A stretch of DNA of 23,160 nucleotides from a virus: positions 1 to 23,160 of IMG/VR virus record IMGVR_UViG_3300021963_000680; one strand, given 5' to 3'. A program made the position numbers and the translations under genes. How positions within the stretch are numbered: position 1 is the stretch's first letter; every line of letters starts with the position of its first letter. Under the pieces are notes generated by a model. That model had not been told where the DNA came from and did not search any database. It saw nothing but the letters and a program-made list of their open reading frames with translations. Shown in pieces: positions 1-20,437 of the stretch.

Positions 1-2
1 GG

Positions 3-602
3 CTTGTGGACTACGCTGAAAAGATGGGCGTTAAGATTAACATCCAAGAAGCGACGAGCTTAGTTAATACCTATCGCTCTTCATATGCTAAGGTTAAAGC
101 AGCATGGTCTGGTATGGAGGCAGCGGCCATTTCAGCCGTTAGGGAACCTGGTGTTGCGTTTAAGTACACCAAGATTAATTTCAAGTACGGCAAGAAAGCG
201 TTATGGATGAGACTACCGTCAGGCAGACTCATATGCTGGCAAGATCCATTGATCGAAAATGGATTAACTCCATGGGGTGATGTACGTGAGGGCATTACGG
301 TTAGAAACCAAAACACTTACACACGTAAATGGGGTAGAAATAAGTTAATCGGATCTTCGATATTCCAATCAGCTGTCCAAGGAACTGCACGTGACTTTTT
401 AGCCCATGCAGCGTTGACGCTGGATAGTTTGGGATTTGAAGTGATTAACTTAATCCACGATGAGATACTTATGATAGCTTTAGAATCTGAAGCTACACAA
501 GCAGAAAAAACGTTACTTCAAGTAATGTCTACACCACCGTCATGGGCAGAAGATTTTCCTCTAGCTGCCGAGACGTGGATAGATAAGCGTTATAGGAAGT
601 AA
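3..602 (+). CDS. Family A DNA polymerase, C-terminal part (partial at left edge)
   Basis: C-terminal end of a family A (Pol I/T7-type) DNA polymerase, the phage replicative enzyme that extends primers from dNTPs. The frame is open through the left edge (a Leu codon precedes the GTG at 6), so the GTG is internal and the exonuclease, motif A and most of motif B are off-window. Visible landmarks are an LPSGR segment at residues about 70-74 (counted from that GTG), typical between the O and P helices of phage family A enzymes; the SAVQGTARDFLAHAAL helix; and motif C, LIHDEIL, with His at 456-458, Asp at 459-461 and the catalytic Glu at 462-464. It is the only gene on the + strand and runs tail to tail into the - strand structural block. 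Family assignment is firm; which phage subfamily it belongs to cannot be told from this fragment. Confidence 0.93.
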   Translation, partial: LVDYAEKMGVKINIQEATSLVNTYRSSYAKVKAAWSGMEAAAISAVREPGVAFKYTKINFKYGKKALWMRLPSGRLICWQDPLIENGLTPWGDVREGITVRNQNTYTRKWGRNKLIGSSIFQSAVQGTARDFLAHAALTLDSLGFEVINLIHDEILMIALESEATQAEKTLLQVMSTPPSWAEDFPLAAETWIDKRYRK

Positions 603-730
603 GCTTTTAAGAAATTGCATAGATGAATAATTTCATCTAGCACGAAATTGATAACACGTTTAGCAACTTGTAAGACATGCGCTACAGGTTGCTTTACTTT
701 ATTTAAGATTGCTTTTAGTTTTTCGATCAT
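590..730 (-). CDS. Possible 46-residue protein at the end of the leftward operon
   Basis: Short frame encoding 46 residues, starting MIEKLKAILNKVKQP. Its ATG overlaps the TGA of the 803-residue gene as ATGA, the same coupling used at other junctions here, which is the main reason to believe it. Its last 13 bases overlap the end of the DNA polymerase gene on the opposite strand. The product is rich in Lys, Val, Ile and Leu and could form an amphipathic helix; I do not recognise it. Without this gene the 124-base convergent junction would be empty, which is longer than any other gap in the window. No strong ribosome binding site is visible apart from coupling. Confidence 0.5.
   Translation of the reverse strand: MIEKLKAILNKVKQPVAHVLQVAKRVINFVLDEIIHLCNFLKAYFL
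621..638. terminator. Weak inverted repeat at the convergent gene junction
   Basis: AGATGAA (621-627) and TTCATCT (632-638) form a 7 bp perfect stem with a 4-base loop between the ends of the convergent genes. It works equally on both strands and its position suits a bidirectional transcript end, but the stem is AU-rich and no T-run follows on either strand. It also lies within the possible 46-residue gene, so it may be chance. Confidence 0.2.
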
Positions 731-3138
731 ACAAGTCCACCTTTTCTCTTAGTTGTAGTAATTATTCCATTTCTCAATTCTGTGTTTGGAAATACTTCTT
801 TTACTAGATCTAAATATTCTTTTGTTGATTTATTGTGTTGGAATCCTTTTGATGTAGGTTTTCCAACACCCGTTTTATTTCCTTCATACACGCTAATATA
901 AGCTTTACCTTTTGGTTTCAAAGCGTTTTTAGCTTGATGTAATACTTTTAATTGATTATCTCTTTCAGCGATCACATTTAATACATTATTAATAGTAGCT
1001 GTGTCTGCTTTTCCATTAGCAATTTGATTAACTACATCCATGTTGTGTTCATAAGATCTATTGAAAGGATCAAACACATGGTTTTTAACATTTGCTTCTG
1101 CTAAAGCTTCTGTAGCATTATCAAATCGACCACCACCAATATCTATATTAACTGTATTAGGTTTGAATTCATTTTTATTTAATAATTTAGTAAACGCTGA
1201 TGGAAGCTTTTTATCATTAATTGATGTAGCAGCAGAATCATAAAGTTGTTTAGGAACAGCCCAAAGATCTTCCGGGATATTTCTTCCAATAGTACCAGCT
1301 AAACCAGCTAATGCACCTTTACTTGTCAATCCTTTAGCAGCTAATGCACCTAATCCTTTAATTGCTCCAGGTCCTAATAAATCATCCGGTGAGAACAGTG
1401 GAGCTTCTAGGCCTGGCTCTTCAGTAGCCAAGCCCGGATATTTTTTTGCTAGGGGAGTTCCTTCAACTACCCCGCCGGAATCATAATGAGCTAAACCACC
1501 TTGTTTTTGTTTAGGAGTAAAATCAGGATCATATTCACCTGAAGTATATCGTTCACCTGATGTTAAAGGTATGGCTTTTTCTTTTAATGTTTTGGCCGTT
1601 GCTCTTATAATGCCAGGATGAGATAAAAATAATGGTGATCCTAGAATACCGGCCCAAGTTAATGGACTTAGGAATGACGATCCTCTTACTGCAGTAGCTC
1701 CTAATTCACCCAACCCAATTATATTTCTAAATGTAGCATCTTGTCTTGGTAGAGCTTTTCTTAAATCACTAAACTGTTTGTATTTAGAATCTAATGAATT
1801 AAGTTTTTTAACAAAGCCTTCCGGCGCTTGTTTACCAATAGCATCTTTTGTATCTGCAATAATAGATTTAAGTTCTTTACCTAAATCATGATTACCAGAT
1901 TTATATGCTAATTCTTTTTGATCTTTAATCCACTTAAGCATAGCACCAACTTCTCTATTTTGTACTTTGGGCTGAGGGATATCAATGATTCGACTAGCTT
2001 CACCTGCGATATCTTCTGTACCTTTTACAACTGGAAATGGACTTGCTTCTTGAATAGTAGCTTTTATAGGAACTTCTTTAGTGTCATGAATAGTTCCTAC
2101 GTTTTTCTTTATGTAATCTGAAACTTTACGTAAAGTATTAGCATTTTCTAATGCGGTAGGATTACCAGTTTCACCTAATTCGTCAGCTCTTGTCTTAATA
2201 TTGTTTATTAGCTTTTCAGTATCATCGGTAGCTTTAACATCAAGACCTTTATAAAGATTATCATAGCCAGCGTCTAATTCAGCTTTAACTTTAGATATTG
2301 CTTTTTGTTGTTTCTTTTCAATAATTCCACCTGTAAATGGAACATATTTAGAAACACCACGTTCTAGTTTTTGAATTAATGGACTTTGAGATTGTTGTCC
2401 TAAAGTACCCATATTTCTTTCAACTAAAGTCTCACCAAGAGATCCGGCTTTAGGAGTTAGGGCAGTAGCTAGTTTATTAAATCCTCCACCAAGAACTGCA
2501 GCCGTCCCTAATTGCGCTGGATCTAATTTATTAGCTAAGTAATTATCTTGATGTTCTGGATTATAATCTGGAGCTATAAGAGATTGTTCAACACCAGTTA
2601 AAGCGCCGCGCGTTACATTAGGCGCAAAACTTGGAATTAACTTAGAAGCTTTTTCTGCAACAGGTGCGGCAAATTTAGATTTAGCAGCCCAAGATATAGG
2701 TGTTTGAGCTTCTCTAATAAATTGACCGGCTTTACCTAATTTACTTGCAGCGCCTGCAGCACCTACACCAGGAAAGAATAATGATCCAACAGTACCTAAT
2801 GCTCTAGAAACATCAGCTCCTTCACCACCTAAATCTTTTCTTAAAGATTGATATCCTTCTTCAATAGCATTTGGAATAGTTTGAGCGCCAGCGAGTTTGG
2901 CTAATCCTAAAATAGGATCAGCAACTGCACCATAAGCAGCACCTACAACGCCTCGAGCAGCACCTTTTACAACATCGCCTGCTGTAATAGATTCATCTTT
3001 TGGGGCAGTAGTTTGAGTGGGACTAGGTGCAGCTTGTTGTGAGCGAATATAGTCGGCTAATTGTTTAGCGCCTTCGACATCACCAGCAGCATCAGCGTTT
3101 TGAAGCGCCTTATATACTTGCGATAAATCTTGAGCCAT
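727..3138 (-). CDS. Probable ejection protein with C-terminal SAM methyltransferase-like domain
   Basis: 803 residues. The N-terminus (1-35) has a YKALQNADAAGD...AKQLADYIR pattern common at the start of large phage internal virion proteins. Residues about 45-240 are Ala/Gly-rich with amphipathic or hydrophobic stretches (KGAARGVVGAAYGAVADP, GSLFFPGVGAAGAASKLG), as expected for proteins injected into or through the host envelope. Residues about 270-490 look helical and coiled. A Gly-rich motif, GGLAHYDSGG, lies near residue 550. From about 655 to the end is a class I methyltransferase-like fold: motif I NIDIGGGRFD, acidic strand-2 end VFDPFNRS, then TINNVLNVI, then NALKPKGKAYISVYEGN. This set (DPFNR, NNVLNVI, vYEG) is typical of a methyltransferase-like domain in phage polyvalent proteins. 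The TAA of the preceding gene overlaps its ATG (TAATG). Role as ejection protein comes from size, composition and neighbours; substrate unknown. Confidence 0.75.
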   Translation of the reverse strand: MAQDLSQVYKALQNADAAGDVEGAKQLADYIRSQQAAPSPTQTTAPKDESITAGDVVKGAARGVVGAAYGAVADPILGLAKLAGAQTIPNAIEEGYQSLRKDLGGEGADVSRALGTVGSLFFPGVGAAGAASKLGKAGQFIREAQTPISWAAKSKFAAPVAEKASKLIPSFAPNVTRGALTGVEQSLIAPDYNPEHQDNYLANKLDPAQLGTAAVLGGGFNKLATALTPKAGSLGETLVERNMGTLGQQSQSPLIQKLERGVSKYVPFTGGIIEKKQQKAISKVKAELDAGYDNLYKGLDVKATDDTEKLINNIKTRADELGETGNPTALENANTLRKVSDYIKKNVGTIHDTKEVPIKATIQEASPFPVVKGTEDIAGEASRIIDIPQPKVQNREVGAMLKWIKDQKELAYKSGNHDLGKELKSIIADTKDAIGKQAPEGFVKKLNSLDSKYKQFSDLRKALPRQDATFRNIIGLGELGATAVRGSSFLSPLTWAGILGSPLFLSHPGIIRATAKTLKEKAIPLTSGERYTSGEYDPDFTPKQKQGGLAHYDSGGVVEGTPLAKKYPGLATEEPGLEAPLFSPDDLLGPGAIKGLGALAAKGLTSKGALAGLAGTIGRNIPEDLWAVPKQLYDSAATSINDKKLPSAFTKLLNKNEFKPNTVNIDIGGGRFDNATEALAEANVKNHVFDPFNRSYEHNMDVVNQIANGKADTATINNVLNVIAERDNQLKVLHQAKNALKPKGKAYISVYEGNKTGVGKPTSKGFQHNKSTKEYLDLVKEVFPNTELRNGIITTTKRKGGLV

Positions 3139-4418
3139 TATTTATATTTGTCCAATAAAGATTGAATGTTTTGTGGATGAGCTGATGGTGCAGCTGCAGG
3201 AGCTGGAGCCTCACCTTTTTTACGTTGAGCTCTATATTCTGATTTTGCAATTGTCGAATTTGCTAATTTTGGATCTGCAAAAACTTCAGCTCTGAATCGT
3301 TTGTAGGCTTTATCGCCTTCACCGTTTACCCATCGAGTGTCAGTTCCACCATTTGCAATGAATTCGGCTTTTGCTTTTAATGTTAAATCCGCTACTTTAT
3401 GAAGACCTATTTTAGATAGTAATGCATCTTCGTTTTCACCTAAATCACCAATGGTTGTTGCAAGAAGCTTAGCATCTCGATCAGAAGGATTAGCACCAAG
3501 AAGCTTAGCATCTGGTAAGATAAGTTTGTTAGCTAAACCATCATAAACTGCTTGAGCTGACGCCATACGTTCGGCTGAATCAGCACCTGGAATTAAAGCA
3601 CCAGTTAATTGAATAATTTTTCTACCAATAAAATTACCTTGGAAAGCACCTGATCCAAAATCAGGATCATTGATAATGTCAATTAAGGATTCAACTGTAC
3701 CTAAATTTTGAATAGAACCTGCAGCTTTTTCATTAGCAGTGTCTAATTGTTTGAGTTGTCTTTCTGTATTTAATTTACCACTTTGAACAGCAAGTTCTCT
3801 CGTTGTATCTAAATCAGATTTAATTTTATCCCTATCTGTATCTAATTGATTTTGGAGTGTTTTATCAAATTGAGATTTTGTTATATCAAATTTAGCTTTA
3901 ATACCTTCTTTATTTGCAAATGTACCTAAATCAAAATCAGAGCCTAATGTTTTTCTATATACATCTTCAGGAGATAATCCAGCAGCAATGTTTTCTTTTT
4001 GAGTATTTGTTAATTTAACATTCTCTCCACGGATCTCGGCAGCTTTCTTTAATGCTTCTTCAGGATTTTGTTGATATAGGGCTGATAATGATGCTGCAGT
4101 ATCCGCATCAAAACCTTGGAATAGGTTGCTCATTTGACCGCGTCTTGATTCTAATAAATTAGCTTGTGCTAATTGTTGACGCATATTAAATAAATCGGCA
4201 TAGTCTTTATTTTTAGTTTCTTGCATCATGGCTACATTTTGACCAATACTACCATACGGGCCCAAGTAAGCTGCACCTTCACCTAATCTATACGTATATG
4301 AGCCTAATTGGTTTGCTTTTCTAGCAATTTCATTTTCAAGATTAGCTTTAATCTCGTCACTACCTAGAGCGCCTTGAAATTTTGGATCAACTAAACCACC
4401 TGAATTAGTTGTTGCCAT
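3138..4418 (-). CDS. Probable ejection/internal virion protein, helical
   Basis: 426 residues, mostly alpha-helical in character with long charged, Gln-rich segments (about 145-250) that would suit coiled coils, and a C-terminal Ala/Pro tail before QNIQSLLDKYK. The start is the ATG at 4418: it has a strong GGAGG (4424-4428) 5 bases upstream, whereas the frame only extends to a TTG at 4430 without such support. The gene overlaps the end of the preceding gene by 14 bases and its stop overlaps the next start (TAATG). Position between two other low-complexity virion proteins and next to the nozzle module suggests one of a set of ejected proteins, as in other podoviruses. There is no recognisable catalytic domain. 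Confidence 0.7.
   Translation of the reverse strand: MATTNSGGLVDPKFQGALGSDEIKANLENEIARKANQLGSYTYRLGEGAAYLGPYGSIGQNVAMMQETKNKDYADLFNMRQQLAQANLLESRRGQMSNLFQGFDADTAASLSALYQQNPEEALKKAAEIRGENVKLTNTQKENIAAGLSPEDVYRKTLGSDFDLGTFANKEGIKAKFDITKSQFDKTLQNQLDTDRDKIKSDLDTTRELAVQSGKLNTERQLKQLDTANEKAAGSIQNLGTVESLIDIINDPDFGSGAFQGNFIGRKIIQLTGALIPGADSAERMASAQAVYDGLANKLILPDAKLLGANPSDRDAKLLATTIGDLGENEDALLSKIGLHKVADLTLKAKAEFIANGGTDTRWVNGEGDKAYKRFRAEVFADPKLANSTIAKSEYRAQRKKGEAPAPAAAPSAHPQNIQSLLDKYK
3461..3513. repeat. Two 17 bp direct copies within a coding region
   Basis: CAAGAAGCTTAGCATCT occurs at 3461-3477 and again at 3497-3513, 36 bases apart, which is exactly 12 codons. In the protein it gives two DAKLL segments in phase (DAKLLGAN and DAKLLATT). 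This is a small in-frame internal duplication, probably neutral. Confidence 0.6.
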
Positions 4419-5490
4419 TAGAACCTCCAAAAATTTGTTCTAAGATTGATGGGTTTGATGGGTTAGCCCCTAATGCTTTATTATTTATTAATGCATCACG
4501 GTTAGAGAAATTTAAACCTTGTTGCCTTTGATTTGCAAATTGAGCTCTACGATATGCTTCTTGATTACGACGATCCATTTCCATTTGTCTCATGCGATCA
4601 ATTTCTGATTGAGGTACTTCTCCCATTTGCATAGGACGTGGCCCTGTTGTAGGTAATCCACCACGTACTCGACGACCATCAGCATATCCAATACGACCAC
4701 CATGTTTAGCAAATACTGACTCTGTATCAGCTACAGGTTGTTGTTGGGTATTTGCTCCAAACGGAGCTGTTTGACCACTAAAGAATCCTGCAGTAGGGCC
4801 AAAATCTTTTTGAGTAGCTATGTATTGTTGATATGCAGAAGGTGTAGTGAATTGTGTTTTAGGAGTATTAACACTACCTAAAATATTAGCGTAGTTTGAA
4901 ATACCAGCCCATGGAGCATTTAAAAGATTAGCTTCCCCTGCAGTACCTACATTGGCTGCATTGACAGCACCAGTAGCTGCATTAATACCTGATTGTTGAG
5001 CTTGGTTCCAAGCATTAGCTTGATTCGTCGCCAATGTATTTACAGCATTACCACGTGCAATATTACTTGCTGTAAGACCACGAAGACCACCAAAGTTACC
5101 AGATGCTATACCAGCTGCATCAGCTTGTGCTTGAACATCTGGTAATTGAGCATTAAGTAAGTTTTGTTGGTTTTGGAATAAGTTACCTAATGGTGTTGCT
5201 GTATTAGCTTGACCATTTGGAAGCCATGGATTAGCAGCATTACCAGCAATAGTATTTAAAGTATTGACTGACTGACCTACAGCACCTTGTAATAAAGCAT
5301 TAGCATTTGTAGCACCTGTCGTTCCTTGATTAGCTTGTTGATTTAGTATTTGAGCGCCGTAGTTAGACAGTCCTTGAGTGGCTTGATTATACCATTCAGG
5401 TAATTGTGTGGTTGTGCTTTGTGAATAGTACGAACTAGGATCTGTGCCTAATGTTGTTGATTGTACCGGATTTCCAAATTCGATGGCCAT
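4405..5490 (-). CDS. Probable internal virion protein, Ala/Asn/Gln-rich
   Basis: 361 residues. The first 250 are dominated by Ala, Asn, Gln, Thr and Gly (for example ANQGTTGATNANALLQGAVG, NTLATNQANAWNQAQQSG) with heptad-like hydrophobic spacing, so a helical, coiled or low-complexity virion component is likely. The central ASGNFGGLRG segment resembles motifs seen in phage internal virion proteins. A basic linker with HGGRIGYADGRRVRGG sits at about 260-285, followed by a charged Arg/Met/Gln helix (about 290-320). TAATG coupling from the preceding gene, with AAGGAAG a few bases before the start. I infer an ejection or tail-interior role from composition and neighbours only; no enzymatic domain is visible. 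Confidence 0.65.
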   Translation of the reverse strand: MAIEFGNPVQSTTLGTDPSSYYSQSTTTQLPEWYNQATQGLSNYGAQILNQQANQGTTGATNANALLQGAVGQSVNTLNTIAGNAANPWLPNGQANTATPLGNLFQNQQNLLNAQLPDVQAQADAAGIASGNFGGLRGLTASNIARGNAVNTLATNQANAWNQAQQSGINAATGAVNAANVGTAGEANLLNAPWAGISNYANILGSVNTPKTQFTTPSAYQQYIATQKDFGPTAGFFSGQTAPFGANTQQQPVADTESVFAKHGGRIGYADGRRVRGGLPTTGPRPMQMGEVPQSEIDRMRQMEMDRRNQEAYRRAQFANQRQQGLNFSNRDALINNKALGANPSNPSILEQIFGGSNGNN

Positions 5491-6596
5491 TATGCTTCCT
5501 TAGCTTGTTTAATATATTCTAGAGGGCTTTTTGCATCTTCTGGCAATTCACCATCTGGGGATTGTCTATCATGTCTAACCATTTTTAAAAACTGATCTAG
5601 TCGTTTAGCGCCAGCTTCATTACTTCCATTACCTAATCCTGATACTACATCAGCAGGGATTACAAATTCACCATTAGATAACATAGCAGGTACTTCATCA
5701 GATGTACCGTCACCTTGACCGCCTACATATAAGTTTTGTAAACCACCTTGACTCATGAACTTTGGTTGTTGTGAAGGCTCATTATAACCAATGCCACCCA
5801 TAGGTTCCATCAAACCACCATCAGCTGCACGCGCTGAAATGAATTGAGGCATTTGAATTTGACGACCACGTGTTACACCAGTATCAAAAGGACTTCCACC
5901 AGGATATGTTAACTCTGATCCTGTATTGGAATCAGTTGGTGTGTTAGCTGTTGGAGCTGATGAAGTTCTAGGTGTTGGTGATGTACCTCCGCCTCCTCCT
6001 CCACTAGTGGTTGTTGAATATGGAGATTTATTTGAGGGATTAGTTGTAGGTGCAGGTGTAGGAGTGCTTGGATACACAGAACTTGCAGGATCATAAAAAT
6101 CAGCAGGATTATAAGTTGGAACAGCAGGCGCAAAATAGTCCCAATATGATGATTGAGTTCCTGGGTTCCAAGAATTATAATATTCATATGGTGATACAGC
6201 ACCAATATAGCTATAATCAGGCACATAGTTGCCATAAGTATCCCAAGATCCTGTATAAGGAGAATAGTTTTCGGTATTGTAATATGCAGGATCGAATTGA
6301 TTATTGTAGTAAGGATTATCTGCTAAATCAGCCGCATTATAATCAGGTTGATAGTAGTCATAAAAGCTACTATTACTGTAAATAGGATCATATGAATAAG
6401 TATCTCCTGTACTATAATCATATCCAGTACCTAAATCATAGCCATAGTTATTACCATAATAAGGAGTGTCGTAGCTTGATCCATAGCCATAATCGTTATA
6501 GTTAGTTGTGTAAAATGGGTCGGAATAGTCATATCCTGACCAGTCCCAAGTAGAACCCCCATCATCAAAGTACGATAAACCTGCTTTTTTCTTCAT
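5490..6596 (-). CDS. Virion protein with Tyr-rich low-complexity N-domain and conserved C-domain
   Basis: 368 residues with three parts. Residues about 9-175 are an extreme low-complexity region of Tyr, Asp, Asn, Ser, Gly and Pro, with about 39 Tyr by hand count (roughly one residue in five), in units such as GYDYS, NYGYD and FYDYY. Residues about 175-240 are a Thr/Ser/Pro/Gly linker with a run of six Gly. The C-terminal about 110 residues contain GGQGDGTSDEVPAMLSNGEF followed by VIPADVVSGLGNGSNEAGAK, a pattern I recognise from virion proteins encoded beside ejection proteins in many podovirus-like genomes. It follows a gap holding a promoter-like motif and has AAGGA at 6603-6607, 6 bases from the ATG. 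It heads the ejection-protein segment. The function of the conserved C-domain is not known to me. Confidence 0.7.
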   Translation of the reverse strand: MKKKAGLSYFDDGGSTWDWSGYDYSDPFYTTNYNDYGYGSSYDTPYYGNNYGYDLGTGYDYSTGDTYSYDPIYSNSSFYDYYQPDYNAADLADNPYYNNQFDPAYYNTENYSPYTGSWDTYGNYVPDYSYIGAVSPYEYYNSWNPGTQSSYWDYFAPAVPTYNPADFYDPASSVYPSTPTPAPTTNPSNKSPYSTTTSGGGGGGTSPTPRTSSAPTANTPTDSNTGSELTYPGGSPFDTGVTRGRQIQMPQFISARAADGGLMEPMGGIGYNEPSQQPKFMSQGGLQNLYVGGQGDGTSDEVPAMLSNGEFVIPADVVSGLGNGSNEAGAKRLDQFLKMVRHDRQSPDGELPEDAKSPLEYIKQAKEA

Positions 6597-6605
6597 ATGA
6601 AATCC

Positions 6606-6628
6606 TTATACTATATATCTAATTACAC
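6606..6628 (-). promoter_or_regulatory. Promoter- or operator-like motif upstream of the ejection-protein segment
   Basis: On the - strand, GTGTAATTAGA (6628-6618) is followed by TATA and then TAGTATAA (6613-6606), which runs directly into the ribosome binding site of the 368-residue gene. The same 11-mer and 8-mer occur, 2 bases closer together, at 21144-21164, in the only other sizeable gap of the block. It could be a phage RNA polymerase promoter, a host-type promoter (TTGCGT, 16 bases, TATAAG) or a regulator site. The shared, gap-restricted placement is the evidence; the kind of site is inference. Confidence 0.5.
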
Positions 6629-6634
6629 GCAAAA

Positions 6635-6892
6635 TCACCTAGTTTGTGCCCCATTTACTGCTAAAGTAAATGCACTTGCCCAATCTTCCCAGTTTTGAAA
6701 ACCGTCTCCTGATGGGACGTTATAAGATGACCAAACAGGGTTATTTACCAAAACATTAGCCACCGTAGCCCACTCTTCCTCAGGCAATATAGGAATGTGC
6801 TGTTGAGAGAAGTAGTGGACTAAGTTGGCATTCCATTGTTCCCAAGTCGAATGGCTTGGGATAAAGTCTAAATTAACGGGTACTCTAGGCAC
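6635..6892 (-). CDS. Small Trp-rich protein with GTG start, unknown function
   Basis: 85 residues, unrecognised. The start is assigned to the GTG at 6892 because an AGGAG at 6899-6903 lies 6 bases before it; the frame extends further to a TTG at 6913, but that codon has no ribosome binding site. With this start it overlaps the nozzle-like gene by 8 bases. The product is acidic to neutral and has six Trp (WEQWNANL, EEEWATV, NPVWSSY, NWEDWASAF) and no membrane segment. Lying between the nozzle-like gene and the ejection proteins, it may be a small tail or assembly component, but nothing in the sequence proves this. It ends the segment before the 38-base gap with the promoter-like motif. Confidence 0.7.
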   Translation of the reverse strand: MPRVPVNLDFIPSHSTWEQWNANLVHYFSQQHIPILPEEEWATVANVLVNNPVWSSYNVPSGDGFQNWEDWASAFTLAVNGAQTR

Positions 6893-9029
6893 GTTCGTCT
6901 CCTGGTTCAGCAATGATCAAAATACGACCCATTTGATAGGTACCATTTAAAGCGTCTGATGTAAAGATTAGCCTCATTTCACGGTTTTCTACTTTCAAAT
7001 CTACCTTGTCAGTTTCAGGGTAGAAGGTGTATTTTTCTGTGAACTGTTCAGGACCTCTAGCATAGGCACGACCAGCAACTTGAAGTTGCATAGGACCGTC
7101 TTGCACAAAGTCAGGCTCAACACGGAATAGCTTAATACGTCTATTTAAACCTACAGCTGTGTCTTGAGAAGGATCTCCACCAACAAAGCTGATGTCACAA
7201 GTTTCAATCGATGATCGGATCGCTGTAATAATGTCATAGAATACACGATCATAGCCATATTCATGCTGCCAAATAGGATATCCACCTAAGATTTGATAGA
7301 CCCTATCTCCTACAGAAGGTGCTGGATTAAAGGCTGAATCAAAAGTAAGCGTTGTTGTATTAGTATTATTAGCATAAGTATCAGAAAATAAACGTTTACC
7401 TCTTGTATCTGGGACTAGAGACATATAAGTACCAGGTAAATTAGGTAAGATAGCGCCATTAACGGCGAACGTTAAACCTGAAGTCACATTAGAAATGGTA
7501 TATGCAGTACCTGTTAAAAGCTCAAAATCATACCCTGCCATAATAGGATATGGAAATAGTTCTGCTTGCCAGCCACATGATCTACGGCATCCCATAGCAC
7601 TACCTAAGTCATACCAAATCTTATCTTTGGTATTGTAAATTACAACGTCAGTACATTCAGTAGCCGTACCTCTTGGATAGAACCACCACACTTCGTTATA
7701 TCGTTTGATAGAAATACCCCAAACTTTAGAACGCGCATTTTGGTTTAAGTTATCATAAACCCAGTTAATATTCTTATCATTTTGTAATGGTTGCACAGTA
7801 CCGTTGTATAGGTAGAACTGTTCTGTACCCATCCAATAATAAACACCATTTTGCTCAACTACGGCGTTCGGCGAAATTAGCGTACAATCGGTGGAGATCA
7901 AGTCATTTGACCAATATAAAGGTGCTGTACCTGTGAATGAAACACGGATTAAAGCATTAGTTGCCCAGAATAAGCCTGATGGTGAGTTAGTACCACCACG
8001 TACAGGAAGACCTTTTAAAATCTTACCTGCAGCCACGTTGATCTGGTTAGCTGTAGGACCATTCCAGTCAGTAAATGTAATCTCATTATACTTACCTGGA
8101 GTATCTGCATTAAAAGTAGATACATGGTTATTAGCAATAAAGCCATTAGAACCATATACAAAGATAAATGGATAGAGCACACAAACGCCACCATCTACAG
8201 AGATGGGAGCCCCTGTAGGTGCTGTACCTGTAGTGTCTCGTAACCCCGTCATATTCCATGTTTCAAATGAATTAGTAACAGTTGGAATTAAACTACCTGC
8301 ATAAACTTGAGATGGAGTTGTGTTATCTACGTTAGGTAGGTTTGGAGGTCCATGAGCAATTAAGTTATATGATGCACCTGATGGAGAATAGTTAATATCA
8401 AAGTTCCAAGAATACACATCGCTTGTACCTGTATAGCGATTTGCTTTATTAGCTAATACAATAGCAGGTGTAATTTGGCCTGTCGTTGGGGCACTTGCTA
8501 CAATCGTAGGAGATCCACTTACAGGGGATACAACAACTGTTGTTAAGCCTGTGCCTGATGAATAGATAGAACTAGTAATTGTATAATTATAATCTTGTTT
8601 AGCAGTTGTACTAAATACAATCAAAGTTCCCGCTGGAACAAATAAGTTAGTGCCAGTTGATGTTTGATCACCTTTTAAAGTTACGGTATTGTTTGCCGGT
8701 ATAGAATTTACAGCAACACTAAATGTTTCATTTCCTACAGTTACATTATAAGGACCATAACCAATACCTACCGTTGTAGTATTTGTAAAAGCATTAATGC
8801 CTCCAGCGTTACCTACAAAGGTATAGTTAGTACCGTTTGATGATTGAACAATTAATCCTCGAGGAGTGAAGGTAGGATCCGCAAACATCGAACGGTATCC
8901 ACCACACTTACGAGGACTACCTCGTTGAAAACGAGACCATTCGCCAGCTGTAAAATCTCTGGATTCGAATGACGTACCGTCTCGTTTGATACCAGGGGTC
9001 ACCTGGAGTGTGTATATTTTATCAGCCAT
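6885..9029 (-). CDS. Tail nozzle-like structural protein
   Basis: 714 residues. The N-terminus has LQVTPGIKRDGTSFESRDFT and GEWSRFQRGSPRKCGGYRSM, a pattern I associate with podovirus tail hub/nozzle proteins. The middle is a long beta-rich region with propeller-like repeats (for example GGVCVLYPFIFVYGSNGFIA, NGVYYWMGTEQFYLYNGT, NEVWWFYPRG...DVVIYNTKDKIWYDLG). The C-terminal about 130 residues (IRSSIETCDISF through LKVENREMRLIFTSDALNGT and GRILIIAEPGD) match the beta-sandwich end seen in nozzle-type proteins. An inserted Ig-like stretch of about 100 residues (about 85-190) is rich in Thr, Val and Ser. It is coupled to the upstream fibre gene by TAATG and followed by the GTG gene. It probably forms the distal tail tube in the virion. 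Assignment rests on pattern memory, not alignment. Confidence 0.7.
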   Translation of the reverse strand: MADKIYTLQVTPGIKRDGTSFESRDFTAGEWSRFQRGSPRKCGGYRSMFADPTFTPRGLIVQSSNGTNYTFVGNAGGINAFTNTTTVGIGYGPYNVTVGNETFSVAVNSIPANNTVTLKGDQTSTGTNLFVPAGTLIVFSTTAKQDYNYTITSSIYSSGTGLTTVVVSPVSGSPTIVASAPTTGQITPAIVLANKANRYTGTSDVYSWNFDINYSPSGASYNLIAHGPPNLPNVDNTTPSQVYAGSLIPTVTNSFETWNMTGLRDTTGTAPTGAPISVDGGVCVLYPFIFVYGSNGFIANNHVSTFNADTPGKYNEITFTDWNGPTANQINVAAGKILKGLPVRGGTNSPSGLFWATNALIRVSFTGTAPLYWSNDLISTDCTLISPNAVVEQNGVYYWMGTEQFYLYNGTVQPLQNDKNINWVYDNLNQNARSKVWGISIKRYNEVWWFYPRGTATECTDVVIYNTKDKIWYDLGSAMGCRRSCGWQAELFPYPIMAGYDFELLTGTAYTISNVTSGLTFAVNGAILPNLPGTYMSLVPDTRGKRLFSDTYANNTNTTTLTFDSAFNPAPSVGDRVYQILGGYPIWQHEYGYDRVFYDIITAIRSSIETCDISFVGGDPSQDTAVGLNRRIKLFRVEPDFVQDGPMQLQVAGRAYARGPEQFTEKYTFYPETDKVDLKVENREMRLIFTSDALNGTYQMGRILIIAEPGDERA

Positions 9030-10299: not shown

Positions 10300-10950
10300 T
10301 TAAATTCCTTGTTCTCGTTTAGTATTTTTATCAATATATCTTGCTTGATCTTCAGCTTTTAGATCATCCATCGCTGTTTGATACATAGGTTGCCAGATTT
10401 GAAGCTTTTCAAAACTCTTCAAATATAGACAAGCTTCAATCATACAAGCATATAGTAATAATTGGGGACATTCCCTAGTGATTAAATTAACTTGGTTTTG
10501 TGAGTCAAGGGGTTGAATACGACCTTGATACACAACTTCTAAGTTGTATGCTTGATCTGGAAGTGGAGCTAATATCCAGTTATCATAATCCCAGTCACCA
10601 TAATAAACAGGTATGCCAGGGTTAGATTCTTGATTATAAAGAGATATAAATGTCTGATCTCTTAATAAAATGGGTGTTCCAGGGACTAAGTTATTTGAAG
10701 CCATAGGAGCTACTTTAAATGATAAAGTCTTTCTCCAACGCGGTGGCTTTGAAATAGCAAATTGCCCTGGATTAATAGTTGTGTTAAGAACGGTTGTTTC
10801 CCACAGTGTTTTTAACCCTGCAGCGATCTTTTGTTCTGCAAGTAAAATGAATGTGGGGATCTTAGCGATAAACGCTTCATCCGATCTTTCCGCGTAGGTT
10901 TGGATATCATCTACGAGGGAATTGTAGGTCATGGTTGCTGCGACGGCCAT
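10300..10950 (-). CDS. Head-tail adaptor protein, SU10-adaptor-like
   Basis: 216 residues. The N-terminal helical pattern TYNSLVDDIQTYAERSDEAF followed by FILLAEQKIAAGLKTLWETT, a middle beta part (PRWRKTLSFKV, PGIPVYYGDWDYDNWILAPL, EVVYQGRIQPL) and a C-terminal helical bundle (CPQLLLYACMIEACLYLKSF, EDQARYIDKNTKREQG) match the adaptor that sits between portal and nozzle in phage SU10-type podoviruses. The length suits that family. In the virion it would bind under the portal ring. AAGGAAA precedes the ATG. Its location two genes upstream of the nozzle-like gene is consistent with a head-to-tail connector module, although here a fibre-like gene lies between them. The family match is from recognition of the pattern, not a database search. 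Confidence 0.7.
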   Translation of the reverse strand: MAVAATMTYNSLVDDIQTYAERSDEAFIAKIPTFILLAEQKIAAGLKTLWETTVLNTTINPGQFAISKPPRWRKTLSFKVAPMASNNLVPGTPILLRDQTFISLYNQESNPGIPVYYGDWDYDNWILAPLPDQAYNLEVVYQGRIQPLDSQNQVNLITRECPQLLLYACMIEACLYLKSFEKLQIWQPMYQTAMDDLKAEDQARYIDKNTKREQGI

Positions 10951-10962
10951 AGTAATTTTCCT

Positions 10963-13908
10963 TTAATTAATAATAAGAATGTCTTTAATAGAACTCGGTT
11001 GATAAGCATTTCCAATTACAGCAGATGTATAATCAAATGCTGCAGTTGAATGCGTAAATGTTAAATTGTTAATATATCCATAGCTTGAATCTACATAAAC
11101 AGGACCTCCTAATGTGGCTCCCGGAATTTGCAATCTTGAAATTGCATTTGGTCCTGAAGATCCTCCTGTAGTAGTCATTGTTAAAGATCCTGAAGTTGGG
11201 TTTCCGGCATATAAAGTTAATGTGGATCCAGAAAATGATGTAGATCCTGTATCAAACATCAATATAGTATTATTAGAATTATCCGTTGTAATTGTATATG
11301 ACGTAGCCGCAGGACCATTCCAATTAGCTGTTAATACATCAGCGATGGCTTGAGCTCTATCCGAATTTAATTCATTAGGTTGAAGAACTAAATTAAGATT
11401 TAATGCAGTATAAGTAGTCGAAACAGGTCTAATAAAAGACCAATATGCTACTGGAGCAGGCGCTAAATTACTTCCTTGAGCTAATGTTGATACGTAATAT
11501 TGTAAAGTCCTTACATTATATTGACCAAGAACAATGGTGTATGTATTGTCATTATTTTGATTTACGTATTCCGGTACAAGAGGATTAGTTCCATAAGTAA
11601 ATCCTAAAACTTTATTTTGAGTAGTAGATCCATTATCCAAATAATATAAATAATTTTTTACGGGATCAGTAATAACATAATAATTTTCTTTTACAGTAAG
11701 TAATAATTTAGTGTCTGTTATCAATACATCAATTGTATATGGTCGTGTAACAGCTGGATCATCAATAGTTATGGTAAATGTTAAAGTATTTAAATCATAT
11801 ATAAAATAATTTCCTATAAACACAACAGTTGATCCCCAATTATAAAATCTAGCAACTGGAGTTTCATAATTATTTACTCTTGGATTTCCAGCACCAAGAT
11901 AAGGATTTGACGGAGGATAGGTAATAAACTCTGTACTGTTAGGATGAATAGCAAGTAATCCATAAACTAATGAAACATAATATGTATTATTTATATAACA
12001 ATTATATAAATAAAAAAGATTAGTATAAGGAGATAGTCCAGAATTCTCGTCTGAACGTATCACTTCCATTATTCTGACGGTAGTAGCGGGGGTGGTACTG
12101 AATCTTACATATTGAGGTGTATTACCAGCAACTCCTAACTTATTTGCTACAATATCATAAAAACTAAACTGACCAACATAGCCGGTAGGTGAAAAACCAT
12201 ACAAATAATATACATCATTACCAAGATAATAACTTTTACAAATAAGCGACTGTCCATATTTTACTGGAGTTCCATTTCTTGTAGTGACATAATATTTTCC
12301 AGCTTCTATTGTAACAGTAGACCCATCTGGAAACGTTGCACTGTAATTTTTAGTTACATAATATTGATCAACTCCTAGATTTAAATATATAGTTGTTCCT
12401 GCAGTAATAATAAGAGTTGATTCTGTTGTCACCATTGAGGTATTTACTCTAACTGTTTCTGTAGTTATCCCTGTTGAAGAATTCCAAGATATATCAGTTT
12501 TTGTAAACCAAGTCATGCCTTTTGCTGGAACGCTACCACTATCTGAATATCGAGAAGCAAGAGGAGCAGTAGGGCGTTCAAAATAGGCATTTAGTGTTCT
12601 TGAATACGATCCAGTTCCTGCTCCATTGGTAGTAAGGTTATAATTATAAGCTACTGGAGTCCATGTCATCGAAATCTCAATTATTTGAGACCCACTGAGT
12701 GGTTGTGGGGGTACAATAACATCAGCAGCAACAGTGGCTACTGCAACAAATGTAGTACCGGTTCCGGTTTCCCTAAATGAAAATTCACTAGAATAATTTA
12801 GATTAGGTGATTGATTTCCATGAAAATTCGGATCTGGATCTAAAGCTGCTGTTGTTGCATTTCGCAAACCCTTAGGTGGGGCATTTCCAGGTTGTGTTGT
12901 AACAAATGTACTAGAAGCACCAATTTGTAAATCACTTGAAAGATTAAATACTAAAGATTCTTTGGTATTGTCTCCGGCTGTCCAATTAATACTAGGTGGT
13001 CCGCCTCTATCTGCAGGATTTAAAGGGTCTTCATTTGTAGCACGTCTAAATTTTTGTGGTAAAGTAACACTATCACCCTTAGCATTAGTAATAACAATAT
13101 CAGAATCTACTGTAGGCGTATCTTCAGAAATAGAAAGTAAAATATCATTTTGAATTAGATCATGAGGTATGATATTAAGAATTGTTTGAGGCACACCCCC
13201 AATTGTTACAGAAATCGTAGCGGTTGTTTGAAGACTTAATAAATTAGAAATTTGAACTTGTTGTCCAGCTTCAGCTGCAGTTGCTGAAATAGTTCCATAC
13301 AAACTATAATTTATAGGATATCTTGCAAAATAGTTAGGTACAGAAAGGGGATATGATAATTCAGGACTATTAATGTATACTGTTGATCTATTATCTGCAT
13401 CATAGTTCATATTTCCTTGAACTACAAACTGTATATTTTGAGGATTAGTAGCTATGTTAGAAACTGTAATTCCATCAATCGTTACAGAAGAACATGTAAA
13501 CGTTCCTTGAGGACCATTCTTTGTAATAAGTGATCCCATACTAACTGTATTACCAATATATGCTGATTGAGCAGGAGTAATTTGTGCAATAACTACCGCC
13601 GTTGGAGGTATATTTCCATTTGTTGGTCTAGGATTTGGAATATCAGGAATTGGATCTCCTGAAGCTGGATTGTAATTTGTTGTTGTATAATAATCACTAA
13701 AATCGACAGGGTTGTTAGTACCAATTGTTGTTGGGATATTTAAATTGTATATAGTATTAGGAACATAGGATCCCCCTCTATTATATACAGAGATTAATAT
13801 TGAATTTCCTGGACCCCCATATACATTAGGAATAGAAGCATAACTAGGGTAGGCACCACCTAGTCCTAGTACAATCGGTCCTTGATTAGAAAATCTTAAA
13901 TTAGCCAT
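10963..13908 (-). CDS. Tail spike/fibre paralog A
   Basis: 981 residues, a close relative of the gene at 14802-17819. Residues 1-76 (NLRFSNQGPIVLGLGGAYPS..., VYNRGGSYVPNTIYN, DFSDYY) are nearly the same in both with no length change; this is probably the virion attachment part. Residues about 100-330 contain two Ig-like segments, the second resembling IPT/TIG domains (SDIVITNAKGDSVTLPQKFR). Residues about 330-825 are beta-rich and poorly conserved between the two, except short blocks such as ARFYNWGSTVVFI. Residues about 826-981 are again conserved (TYTALNL, RAQAIADVLTANWNGP, YTITTDNSNNT, VYVDSSYGYINN). No lyase or hydrolase active site is recognisable. Its start overlaps the stop of the 294-residue gene (TAATG). 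It likely helps in host attachment, which is inference from architecture. Confidence 0.75.
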   Translation of the reverse strand: MANLRFSNQGPIVLGLGGAYPSYASIPNVYGGPGNSILISVYNRGGSYVPNTIYNLNIPTTIGTNNPVDFSDYYTTTNYNPASGDPIPDIPNPRPTNGNIPPTAVVIAQITPAQSAYIGNTVSMGSLITKNGPQGTFTCSSVTIDGITVSNIATNPQNIQFVVQGNMNYDADNRSTVYINSPELSYPLSVPNYFARYPINYSLYGTISATAAEAGQQVQISNLLSLQTTATISVTIGGVPQTILNIIPHDLIQNDILLSISEDTPTVDSDIVITNAKGDSVTLPQKFRRATNEDPLNPADRGGPPSINWTAGDNTKESLVFNLSSDLQIGASSTFVTTQPGNAPPKGLRNATTAALDPDPNFHGNQSPNLNYSSEFSFRETGTGTTFVAVATVAADVIVPPQPLSGSQIIEISMTWTPVAYNYNLTTNGAGTGSYSRTLNAYFERPTAPLASRYSDSGSVPAKGMTWFTKTDISWNSSTGITTETVRVNTSMVTTESTLIITAGTTIYLNLGVDQYYVTKNYSATFPDGSTVTIEAGKYYVTTRNGTPVKYGQSLICKSYYLGNDVYYLYGFSPTGYVGQFSFYDIVANKLGVAGNTPQYVRFSTTPATTVRIMEVIRSDENSGLSPYTNLFYLYNCYINNTYYVSLVYGLLAIHPNSTEFITYPPSNPYLGAGNPRVNNYETPVARFYNWGSTVVFIGNYFIYDLNTLTFTITIDDPAVTRPYTIDVLITDTKLLLTVKENYYVITDPVKNYLYYLDNGSTTQNKVLGFTYGTNPLVPEYVNQNNDNTYTIVLGQYNVRTLQYYVSTLAQGSNLAPAPVAYWSFIRPVSTTYTALNLNLVLQPNELNSDRAQAIADVLTANWNGPAATSYTITTDNSNNTILMFDTGSTSFSGSTLTLYAGNPTSGSLTMTTTGGSSGPNAISRLQIPGATLGGPVYVDSSYGYINNLTFTHSTAAFDYTSAVIGNAYQPSSIKDILIIN
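13681..13908. repeat. Paralog repeat, copy A (5' end of spike gene A)
   Basis: These 228 bases align without a gap to 17592-17819. They encode residues 1-76 of the two spike paralogs and include identical stretches such as TAATCACTAAAATCGACAGG. The two copies lie in the same orientation about 3.9 kb apart and could support homologous exchange. Confidence 0.85.
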
Positions 13909-14801: not shown

Positions 14802-17800
14802 TTAAATAAAAACTACATCTCGTTTAATAGAGGTTGGGGTATAATTATTTTGTACAACAGTTGATGTTGAATCAAAGCCATCATAGTCATGTGTAAATGT
14901 TAGAAAAAATGATCCATTATTCACATATCCATAAGACGCATCTATATATACCTGATTTTGAGCACCCATTACTGATAATCGAGTAATATTCGAATTAGTA
15001 CTAGAATTACCTCCTGAAGTAACCATTGTAAATGTACCCGCTGTAGTTGATCCTGTTTGAGCTAAAGTAGATCCTGATATTACAATGGAATTGGTGTTAA
15101 AATCCAATACAGTATTACCTGAGTTATCCGTTGTAATAGTATATGTTGGTGTAGTAGGTCCATTCCAATTAGACACTAATGCACTAGCTACAGATTGAGC
15201 TCTTTGAGCATTAGTGTCTGTAGGTGATAATGATATAGGTAAATTAAGTGCTGTGTATGTAGCAGACGCTGTTCTATTAAATGTCCAGGATACAGTAGGT
15301 GGATAGCTTAACAAATAATTAGACAATTTACCTGTAAGTGTTCCGCCTAGACTATAACTAAAAATAAGATCAGAAGTTGTGCTATTTGGATTTAATTTTA
15401 TAAAATATTGACCTAAATCTGGAAATGAAAAAGTAGGTACTTGAACCGGCGTAAATGATCCCGTATTAAGATAATATCCCACTGAACGGCCAATATTAGA
15501 GTCATAATTAGTAAATACTAATCTGTCATCATCTATAAAAGATGGGGTATAATCTTGTCCTGTAAAATAAGAGTTTCCAACAGTTAATTGATAATTTGTT
15601 AAAGTGCTTAAATCCGTGATATAAAATACGGTATTCCAAGATATAACAACAACTGTTGATCCCCATTGATAAAATTTTCCTGCATATCCAGTTTTACTAA
15701 ACACAGATGAAGTAGTAGCACTATAACTAGAACGTGTAAAACCTGTAAAACTATTATCTGTGTAATTAAATGGAAGACCATATGACGATATAAAAAATTT
15801 ATTATTATATGATACCGTAAATACACCCCAACTAGTTAAGGGTAATGCAGGACCACTAGAAGGATTCGTAGTGCTAGTAAATAAAACTGGAAGATTATAG
15901 TTAGTTAGATAATTTGTTGAAGCCCCAGCATTTATTCCATTATTCCATCTCATTACATAAGGACTTGGAGCTCCTGGTGTTGAAGACCCATTGTTTAATT
16001 TTGGTTTCCAAAACATTAAACAAGATTCTCCATTACCTAGATAATTAAATCCATATATAAGATAAGTTTCTGTGTCTGTACTTAAAGGATTAGTGTATTT
16101 AATTGCTCTTATTGGATAAAATCCAGTGTAATTTAATATAGGCACACCTTTATACGTAGCATATGATGTATAAGTTCCAACTGGTACTGTTCCAGGGGTA
16201 TAGACTGATCCTCCAAATCCATATGATATAGATACTCCATCAGAAAATGTATAAGGTCCAACAATATTATTTGGTGGAGCAGAATCTGTATAAGTTTGAA
16301 CAAACCAATAGACAGGAGTATTTACCGCAAATAATGTATAATCAAAAGTAATATTTGCAGGCAATGTTAAATTTGCGTCAAAATAGTTTTCATCCGAACC
16401 AGATAAATATCCTACAGTTGTTTTAGAAGCAACAGAATTGGAATATTTAACAGTACCAAAGGATGTTGAAGTCGATAAACTTGTTCCTGTAGCCGCATAT
16501 AAACCCACATACGCTGTTGAATAATCTATATTAGATGCTACATGAGATCTAAAATACATTCTTACAGCCCAAACACCAGCCATTGTTCCATTTGGAATAA
16601 TAACAGCTCTTGTCAAAACCCCTACTTGAACTAAAGATGTAGTATCAGCAGCACCTTGAAATGTCGTGTCAGCATCAAAAATTGTAGAGTTATTTACAAC
16701 TAAGAAATCATTACTGAGTGGCTGGGATTGTTGATTGCCATATCCGCCTCCAGGATCTAAATTAGATGATGTATAATTTCTTTGAGTTTGATTAACAGTA
16801 TACGTGGCTGATGGATACGATGTTCCATTTGTAAATGCTAAATTACTAGAAAATGTAAATATCAATCTTTCTGGCAATTGTTCTTGTGCTGTCCAATTAA
16901 TGTTTGGTGGAGGTCCACGATCAGTTGGATCTAATGGATTGTTTGTTGATCGTTTAAATTGTTGCGGTAAAGTGACACTATCACCTTTTGCATTAGTAAT
17001 TACTATATCAGATTCTTCAGTAGGGGTTGCTTCATTTATTACAATCAAAATATCGTTTTGAATATTATCATGCGGTGTAATACTTACAATCGTTTGAGCT
17101 ACACCACCAATAGTAATGGTTGGCTGTGGGTCAGTTTGAAGACTTAATAAATTAGATATAAGAACATTCTGTCCTGTCATAGCACTTGTATTAGATATGG
17201 TGCCATATAAGCTATAATTAATAGCGTATCTTGCAAACCACTTAGGTATATTATACCCTCCTGATAATCCAGTGATGTTTAATAATACATCAGATCGATT
17301 AGAAGGATCATAGTTCATACCACCTTGGACCACAAACTGTATGTTTTGCTGATTTACCGCCGTGTTAGCAGTTGTGATACCATCTACAGTTACTGACTGA
17401 CATGTATAAGGATTAGTAGATCCTACACCTTTTGTAGTCAAAGATCCTACATTTACTGTGTTGCCAATATATGCTGCCTGAGGGGCTGATATATTAGTAA
17501 CAAGGGTTGAATCAGGATGAGGATCTGGTGTTGGGGTAGGTCTTGGATTAGGTATAGGTGGTACAGGAGTTGGACCTGGATTATAATTGGATGTCGTATA
17601 ATAATCACTAAAATCGACAGGATTACCAGTGCTAATGGTGGTTGGTATGGTTTGGTTGTATATCGTATTAGGAACATAAGATCCTCCACGATTATATACC
17701 GAAATTAAGATTCCTTGAGTAGGTCCTCCAAATACGCTAGGTATAGACGCATAGCTAGGATAGGTTCCTCCTAATCCTAGCACTATAGGTCCTTGATTGG

Positions 17801-17819
17801 AGAATCTTAAGTCTGCCAT
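14802..17819 (-). CDS. Tail spike/fibre paralog B
   Basis: 1005 residues with the same plan as the gene at 10963-13908: attachment-like N-terminus (1-76), a Pro-rich linker (PGPTPVPPIPNPRPTPTP) longer than in A, Ig-like plus IPT/TIG-like segments to about 330 (SDIVITNAKGDSVTLPQQFK, PPPNINWTA), a divergent beta-rich middle (about 330-845), and a conserved C-terminus (845-1005: ATYTALNLPISL, RAQSVASALVSNWNGP, YIDASYGYVNN). In the middle only short blocks correspond, such as GKFYQWGSTVVVI. The different middles with fixed ends suggest that the two proteins occupy the same virion site type but recognise different surfaces. Coupled to the upstream beta-helix fibre gene by TAATG. No catalytic residues are identifiable. 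Confidence 0.75.
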   Translation of the reverse strand: MADLRFSNQGPIVLGLGGTYPSYASIPSVFGGPTQGILISVYNRGGSYVPNTIYNQTIPTTISTGNPVDFSDYYTTSNYNPGPTPVPPIPNPRPTPTPDPHPDSTLVTNISAPQAAYIGNTVNVGSLTTKGVGSTNPYTCQSVTVDGITTANTAVNQQNIQFVVQGGMNYDPSNRSDVLLNITGLSGGYNIPKWFARYAINYSLYGTISNTSAMTGQNVLISNLLSLQTDPQPTITIGGVAQTIVSITPHDNIQNDILIVINEATPTEESDIVITNAKGDSVTLPQQFKRSTNNPLDPTDRGPPPNINWTAQEQLPERLIFTFSSNLAFTNGTSYPSATYTVNQTQRNYTSSNLDPGGGYGNQQSQPLSNDFLVVNNSTIFDADTTFQGAADTTSLVQVGVLTRAVIIPNGTMAGVWAVRMYFRSHVASNIDYSTAYVGLYAATGTSLSTSTSFGTVKYSNSVASKTTVGYLSGSDENYFDANLTLPANITFDYTLFAVNTPVYWFVQTYTDSAPPNNIVGPYTFSDGVSISYGFGGSVYTPGTVPVGTYTSYATYKGVPILNYTGFYPIRAIKYTNPLSTDTETYLIYGFNYLGNGESCLMFWKPKLNNGSSTPGAPSPYVMRWNNGINAGASTNYLTNYNLPVLFTSTTNPSSGPALPLTSWGVFTVSYNNKFFISSYGLPFNYTDNSFTGFTRSSYSATTSSVFSKTGYAGKFYQWGSTVVVISWNTVFYITDLSTLTNYQLTVGNSYFTGQDYTPSFIDDDRLVFTNYDSNIGRSVGYYLNTGSFTPVQVPTFSFPDLGQYFIKLNPNSTTSDLIFSYSLGGTLTGKLSNYLLSYPPTVSWTFNRTASATYTALNLPISLSPTDTNAQRAQSVASALVSNWNGPTTPTYTITTDNSGNTVLDFNTNSIVISGSTLAQTGSTTAGTFTMVTSGGNSSTNSNITRLSVMGAQNQVYIDASYGYVNNGSFFLTFTHDYDGFDSTSTVVQNNYTPTSIKRDVVFI
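17592..17819. repeat. Paralog repeat, copy B (5' end of spike gene B)
   Basis: Gap-free counterpart of 13681-13908, same orientation. Differences are mostly at third codon positions, so the copies are not recent but remain similar enough for the protein ends to be nearly the same. Confidence 0.85.
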
Positions 17820-19794: not shown

Positions 19795-19943
19795 TATTTT
19801 TTCCTTGCAGTTTTTGCCGCTTGTTTAAATTGAGCTGCGGTAGGTGCGCCTTTACTACCGGGCTTTCTCATATGTTCGCCTGAACCGGCTTTAATACGTT
19901 CGCGTTTAGCATGAATTGCATCATACAATCCTGGTTTTTTCAT
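19794..19943 (-). CDS. Small basic phage protein, 49 residues
   Basis: 49 residues: MKKPGLYDAIHAKRERIKAG, then SGEHMRKPGSKGAPTAAQFK, then QAAKTARKK. I recognise this as a widespread small phage protein type (LYxxIHAKRxRIxxGSGExMRKPGSKGAPTAxxF) of unknown function. It is very basic, with no hydrophobic core. Its ATG overlaps the TGA of the HNH gene (ATGA) and its TAA overlaps the ATG of the 349-residue virion gene (TAATG), so it belongs to the structural operon. It is short enough to be missed by standard gene callers. A nucleic acid or virion assembly role is possible but unproven. Confidence 0.85.
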   Translation of the reverse strand: MKKPGLYDAIHAKRERIKAGSGEHMRKPGSKGAPTAAQFKQAAKTARKK

Positions 19944-20437
19944 TTATAAGCCCCTACATTTAAATTTAATTGATCATCACCTAAAAATTTAGCAACCGAT
20001 GAACATAAATTATAAAAATCTTCATATTTAAAATTTGATTTCATTCTATTAATTGCTTGACATACTAAAATTGTATTATCTTTAGTATATCCAATGCCAC
20101 TATTTATTCTTTCTATGGATACAGTATTTAACTGTCCAGCTTCTAAAGTCATTTCTATTCCTGAATAAGCACAAGTTTGATATTGAGTATTCCAACAATT
20201 AACAACATCATCTATAGTTAAACTGAATTCATGATTTCTTTTAATAGCACTTTTTCTAGCATTTTGTAAAAAAACTCTAGCTCTTGTTTCTATTTTTGAG
20301 TTTGCTTTTGCTCTGGACTTAATATTTCCAATTGTACAACATGCTTTACACCAACTATGTAAACCATCTGGTGTTTGTGAATGTTTAAAAAACAAATCGG
20401 TAGACTTTGTTTCTTTACATTTAAAACAAGATTTCAT
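19940..20437 (-). CDS. HNH-type endonuclease, probably mobile
   Basis: 165 residues. An N-terminal zinc-finger-like CxxC-x22-CxxC (Cys 4, 7, 30, 33; SCFKCKE and SWCKACC) is followed by a basic helical linker (41-70) and an HNH-like core: CAYSGIEMTL (from 89), VSIERINSGIGYTKDNTILV (106-125), then CQAINRMKSNF. This layout matches phage HNH nucleases of the SIDRID...GYxxDN type, in which the first HNH His is not conserved; Asn 121 is the central residue. The start at 20437 is chosen because it gives an ATGA overlap with the previous stop and has GGAAG upstream; a longer frame begins at 20452 without a binding site. Much more AT-rich than its neighbours. It interrupts a chain of small basic genes, so a free-standing homing endonuclease is likely. 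Confidence 0.8.
   Translation of the reverse strand: MKSCFKCKETKSTDLFFKHSQTPDGLHSWCKACCTIGNIKSRAKANSKIETRARVFLQNARKSAIKRNHEFSLTIDDVVNCWNTQYQTCAYSGIEMTLEAGQLNTVSIERINSGIGYTKDNTILVCQAINRMKSNFKYEDFYNLCSSVAKFLGDDQLNLNVGAYK

Follow-up and report, generated by a model that had tools for sequence, protein, structure and literature searches.

Does a short-tailed phage bring a methyltransferase into its host together with its DNA? The question is raised by a gene for an 803-residue protein in virus record IMGVR_UViG_3300021963_000680, which is incomplete, has a GC content of 37% and was analysed over its 23,160 bases (hereafter the window). The original prediction described the protein as a probable ejected virion protein fused to a methyltransferase (MTase)-like domain.

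Late operon and ejection slot

The source virus of the window is a short-tailed phage. Its late genes are located on the minus strand and comprise a lysozyme gene, a holin-like ORF, tail genes, an SU10-type adaptor, a gp10-like nozzle and four further ORFs of 368, 361, 430 and 803 aa, with the 803-aa ORF at the operon end (Table 1). The nozzle protein is 41% identical to a 'phage stabilization protein'. The 803-aa gene follows adaptor and nozzle as the third ejection gene, occupying the slot of P22 gp16. The TAATG overlap of its start with the stop of the 430-aa gene likely reflects translational coupling. The 430-aa protein shows weak similarity to its counterpart in MW202545, and no close relatives of it were found in viral_contigs or among phages.

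Table 1 Features of the window, with the evidence for each assignment
Feature	Position	Strand	Basis
DNA polymerase A (family A), C-terminus	3..602	+	convergent with late operon, as in GB2A
803-aa gene, predicted gp16-type ejection protein with C-terminal MTase domain	727..3138	-	ORF list; last late-operon gene
Class I SAM-MTase domain, residues 623-803	730..1272	-	AF2, Foldseek, leave-one-out profile
Q767, second family-specific segment	838..840	-	invariant (48 sequences)
NNVLNVI, residues 717-723, motif IV position after beta-4	970..990	-	N718, L720, N721, V722 invariant (48)
DPFNR, residues 690-694, beta-2 end	1057..1071	-	D690 invariant (48)
Motif I DIGGG, residues 666-670, predicted SAM-binding loop	1129..1143	-	G668, G670 invariant (48)
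TSIN motif, residues 638-641, family-specific core lead-in	1216..1227	-	T and S at least 90% conserved (48)
Ala/Gly-rich scaffold, about residues 84-622	1273..2889	-	no viral_contigs relative
N-terminal segment common with P22-gp16-type ejection proteins, residues 1-83	2890..3138	-	tblastn, HMM, hhalign
TAATG overlap, 430-aa stop and 803-aa start	3136..3140	-	sequence
430-aa protein, gp20-like (second ejection) slot	3138..4430	-	gene order compared with GB2A and MW202545
361-aa protein, next ejection slot	4405..5490	-	E 0.001 to GB2A gp064c
368-aa virion protein (predicted)	5490..6596	-	E 3e-12 to GB2A gp065c; hhalign 95.6%
P22 gp10-like nozzle/stabilisation protein	6885..9029	-	phrog_3287, E 2e-22
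SU10-type adaptor protein	10300..10950	-	PF24175, E 5e-22

The late operon of Caulobacter phage GB2A is collinear with that of the window. It features an adaptor, a tail protein, a gp10-like protein, a small ORF and then ORFs of 580, 333, 435 and 722 aa, the last of which lies next to convergent genes including that of the DNA polymerase. The last ORF, gp062c, is organised like the window protein, with a scaffold of about 600 aa followed by a C-terminal enzyme, but carries an SLT transglycosylase in place of the MTase. An SLT domain also ends the last ORF of MW202545. Comparison of the 803-aa scaffold with gp062c yielded weak, collinear similarity. Near-identical gp062c proteins occur in phages RW, RLK and KcrB. 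A related protein, Sm_phiM5_31 of phage phiM5, is likewise encoded at the end of a collinear late operon and carries the note 'detected in phage particle proteome'.

The N-terminus of the window protein provides additional means to assign the slot. The first 45 residues alone matched the N-termini of gp16-type proteins of phiSG1 (E 1e-3), Vibrio phage 199E37-1 (2e-3), MW202879 (3e-3) and Emek (9e-3), followed by matches to P22-like Vibrio phages. In phiSG1, Emek, Vibrio 199E37-1 and 1.003.O, N-terminus was aligned to N-terminus, and the matched gene was always in the third ejection slot. At the loci that were read, ORF start and match start are no more than two codons apart, and the slot follows a gp20-type gene. 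Most annotated matches bear the names DNA transfer, injection or gp16 protein and are found in the same slot. An HMM of four gp16-type N-termini gave 51.8 bits on the window protein and 57.8 bits on its N-terminus, compared to a maximum of 13.3 bits among 5,000 shuffles; the sequences used to build it were first found via the window, and the independent points are the annotation names and the slot. With hhalign, residues 1-83 matched the gp16-type N-terminus at 96.6%, against 0.1% for a shuffled control.

The third ejection proteins SGPHI_0021 of phiSG1, gp13 of Emek and gp16 of Vibrio 199E37-1 share with the window protein the N-terminal motif ALxNADAAGDxEgAkxiA and a similar total size (636-803 aa). 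Their middle regions show no detectable similarity to the window protein, and the MTase end is a feature of the latter. No gp16 match was obtained past residue ~83, and residues 84-622 are without detectable relatives, so that the case for homology to gp16 is made by the first ~83 residues and by gene order. For residues 1-632, no close relatives were found in viral_contigs. The first ~625 residues are rich in Ala (12.8%) and Gly (11.2%), as had been pointed out; a single-sequence AF2 model of the full-length protein is all-helical over this part at a pLDDT of 40 and carries no weight.

Judged from sequence and gene order, the assignment of the 803-aa protein as a virion ejection protein is well supported. 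There is little chance that it is not ejected, being instead part of the tail, another minor structural protein, or a late product outside the virion whose gene merely adjoins the ejection genes. Such a reading draws on the incompleteness of the 23-kb record, but is opposed by the gp16-type N-terminus, the TAATG coupling to the upstream ejection-slot gene and the synteny with virion-detected proteins. The predicted ejection of an MTase-bearing virion protein is thus supported by N-terminus and slot, at the level of sequence.

Several minor observations were made in the window. Two tandem paralogues of 981 and 1005 aa (10963-13908 and 14802-17819, minus) are 54% identical over the first ~420 residues and unrelated in the remainder; they are likely duplicated tail or appendage proteins with differing tips. 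A 135-aa ORF (21634-22041, minus) overlaps the lysozyme gene and matches GTA_holin_3TM weakly (E 0.0012, below the cut-off). Also among the late genes, a 170-aa ORF without Pfam match (19940-20452, minus) contains CxxC pairs and is possibly a small zinc-binding or HNH-like protein. Short motifs of the KxGGL and YADGG type occur in the 361-, 368- and 803-aa proteins (4405-6596 and 727-3138, minus). Their enrichment compared to shuffles is just weak, and a role of the KxGGL motifs as packaging tag was set aside. Scans of positions 1-7000 for sigma-70 promoters and terminators found fewer sites than in shuffled sequences.

C-terminal methyltransferase domain

The C-terminal end of the 803-aa protein is formed by a domain of ~180 residues. 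A leave-one-out profile of 47 relatives, from which the window was excluded, scored 255.5 bits on this domain, whereas 2,000 shuffled versions of these residues reached 11.1 bits at most. The Pfam family Methyltransf_23 matched the 803-aa protein with an E-value of 1.8e-5 and 25 bits, 2 bits short of the cut-off of 27. An AF2 model of the domain, based on a 48-sequence alignment, reached a pLDDT of 92.7 and a pTM of 0.89. It contains strands that we assigned ourselves as beta-1, beta-2, beta-4, beta-5, beta-6 and beta-7 of a class I MTase; beta-3 was not seen in the model. The top Foldseek ranks are class I MTases, including Trm9, METTL6 and RPA2492 (3e23) with SAM.

The features that define class I SAM-dependent MTases are present, namely a Rossmann-like fold, a GxG loop after beta-1, an acidic residue after beta-2 and motif IV after beta-4. 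We conclude that the MTase fold is secure, while enzyme function is predicted from the model and the sequence. The class I SAM-MTase-like region of the original prediction is hence confirmed by profile, AF2 and Foldseek, and its motifs NIDIGGGRFD, VFDPFNRS, TINNVLNVI and KPKGKAYISVYEGN are all located at the C-terminus of the 803-aa ORF. The SAM-pocket motifs are intact; loss of this pocket in the predicted fold had been named as grounds for abandoning the reading. The placement at the C-terminus also held. The start was moved from residue 650 (nt 1190) to residue 623-625 (nt ~1272), because the conserved lead-in LWxxPxQ...SAxTSINxxKLP is part of the domain.

In the alignment of 48 sequences, which underlies all conservation figures, residues G668, G670, D690, N699, N718, L720, N721, V722 and Q767 are invariant, and T638, S639, N693, R694 and Y775 are nearly so. 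The acidic residue of DPFNR is expected to bind the ribose. Among 76 members, drawn from phages, Vibrio megaplasmids and bacterial genomes, motifs I and IV and the acid after beta-2 are retained. Purifying selection acts on the domain in a sister family, where its dN/dS is 0.06-0.42. A Rossmann module that has lost catalysis or is purely structural, e.g. for DNA binding or as a C-terminal folding plug, would fit the missing beta-3 and the allele at locus L034, which deviates at conserved positions in both flanking segments. Conservation of the motifs in the 76 members and dN/dS values below 1 speak against this explanation, which we consider improbable.

Family assignment and distribution

The PHROGs family phrog_14016, listed with 'unknown function', matches 45 of the 48 members. 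A stand-alone relative, ORF332 of Vibrio phage nt-1, belongs to the same domain family as the window MTase but is a free-standing protein of 215 aa. The original prediction held that the enzyme could modify incoming or host DNA, which the motifs disfavour: the amino-MTase motif IV, [DNS]PP[YFW], is found in none of the 76 domain sequences and the PC motif IV of C5-cytosine MTases in a single one (L064). Assignments as DarB-like N6-adenine DNA MTase (NPPY-type motif in 0/76 members) and as C5-cytosine DNA MTase (PC in 1/76) were therefore rejected.

DarB-type MTases are gamma-class N6-adenine enzymes with NPP(Y/F), an LPD36 lead-in and an SF2 helicase. NPP(Y/F) and the helicase were sought in the window protein and are absent, and Pfam yielded no match to LPD36 and no SF2 (SWI2/SNF2) helicase domain, which a distant relative (L076) does possess. 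The absence of the motifs (0/76 and 1/76) indicates that the polyvalent DNA-adenine MTases of Iyer et al. (PMC5512222) are a different family. From the Foldseek neighbours and the missing DNA-MTase motifs we infer that RNA, protein or a nucleotide-like small molecule is more likely to be the substrate than DNA adenine or cytosine. Membership in TIGR04096 or mad2, bacterial defence components that are MTases of Dnd phosphorothioation and MADS, was likewise considered. TIGR04096 gave weak matches in 3 of the 48 members (best 1.4e-5) and PADLOC mad2 a weak match (E 0.005); these are below confident homology and the assignment was rejected.

A domain scan detected 62 loci in viral contigs and 13 in genome contigs (L numbers denote such loci). 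Complete domain-bearing ORFs range from 161 to 4,251 aa, many exceeding 1,000 aa. In Pfam scans of about 20 of them, ART-PolyVal was found in the same ORF in L020, L065, L074 and L080, together with LPD23 in L080 and LPD3 in L074; further same-ORF domains are a zeta-toxin (L049), FtsK gamma (L044) and SNF2/helicase (L076). The co-occurrence of ART-PolyVal, LPD23 and LPD3 with the MTase in relatives bears out the suggested link to polyvalent proteins. No second enzymatic or effector domain was found by Pfam in the window protein, which is thus not polyvalent in itself, whereas many of its relatives are.

Stand-alone forms are found in nt-1 (ORF332, adjoining the late sigma factor gp55) and in the huge phage LR745208. 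The L013 type has another setting and adjoins a DNA-polymerase exonuclease subunit. In Vibrio plasmids of 882-939 kb, the domain is the C-terminus of a 341-aa protein, which at 5470-6495 of both L005 and L007 (plasmids of 882-925 kb) has a conserved neighbourhood.

The family recurs across podovirus lineages, both P22-like and T7-like. In L049, L067, L069 and L070 the MTase ORF is located downstream of T7 gp12, a region that in T7-like phages is the site of gp14-gp16. The order of these genes is gp14-gp15-gp16 (PMC8954989). The MTase ORF of L001 follows a gp10-like nozzle and is split by a frame break, either a sequencing error or real, into parts of 245 and 509 aa (6308-7045 and 6972-8498). 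MTase ORF and podovirus marker share the strand in all contigs with a marker (12/12).

Proposed delivery with the phage DNA

Because SAM is cytoplasmic, the MTase would work in one of two places, the cell that produces the virions or the cell into which they eject. The SLT at the same position in GB2A acts on peptidoglycan in the periplasm, a compartment without SAM, so the C-terminus of the window protein need not be cytoplasmic. Action after ejection is favoured, since several lineages have the domain fused to a polyvalent protein or to one in the ejection slot. These repeated fusions point to co-delivery. They weigh against the alternative that the fusion is a virion protein whose MTase does its work before packaging, for example by modifying phage proteins or nucleic acids during assembly, and is carried in the virion incidentally; an assembly enzyme has no need of fusion to a packaged protein. 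The gene does sit in the late operon, and stand-alone relatives such as nt-1 ORF332 beside gp55 need no delivery. Overall, we regard activity in the producing cell as rather unlikely.

On balance, we consider it probable that a third ejection protein in the P22-gp16 slot, with a C-terminal MTase, is ejected and that its target is methylated ahead of phage gene expression. The protein would be packed near the portal, with between a few and about a dozen copies per particle, and leave with the DNA, and the MTase would reach the cytoplasm, where SAM is available. Such early methylation might then aid host takeover or defeat a defence. In P22, ~12 copies of gp16 are packed per virion and exit with or before the DNA (PMC4992974).

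The original prediction considered the delivery setting to be the new part. Delivery of an MTase with the phage DNA has already been reported for P1 DarB (PMC12810830, PMC5512222) and predicted for polyvalent proteins (Iyer et al. 2017, PMC5512222), with which the window MTase shares the reading of virion carriage and entry with the DNA. A literature search for virion-packaged MTases under the phrase 'packaged methyltransferase' gave no result. The novelty lies in the MTase family itself, in the gp16-type protein that carries it and in its repeated occurrence among podovirus lineages.

Should the protein be both ejected and active, a phage enzyme would act on the host before any transcription takes place; by analogy with P22, about a dozen copies would be delivered. 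Ejection and activity would also provide phrog_14016 with a candidate function and extend the injected repertoire by a family of MTases that are not of the DarB type. They would further suggest that short-tailed phages use the gp16 slot for exchangeable cargo. The recurrence in P22-like and T7-like phages makes these expectations testable in laboratory podoviruses.

More speculatively, and with low confidence, the ejection slot of podoviruses can be viewed as a loading dock with swappable C-terminal enzymes (transglycosylase, MTase, polyvalent arrays). The MTase family may then be an unnamed injected effector whose host target is something other than DNA (RNA, protein or a signalling nucleotide) and is methylated in the first minutes, and the segments contacting this target may diversify by module exchange. 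Evolution of the MTase module as an exchangeable effector also belongs to the probable mechanism given above. Loci L017 (1506-3545) and L034 (1757-3796) encode the same 679-aa protein, of which codons 1-481 are identical bar one base. At the MTase module the two diverge sharply to 79% aa identity, with most differences in two segments flanking the Rossmann core. This one clear pair provides a lead that the MTase module was replaced on an otherwise identical protein.
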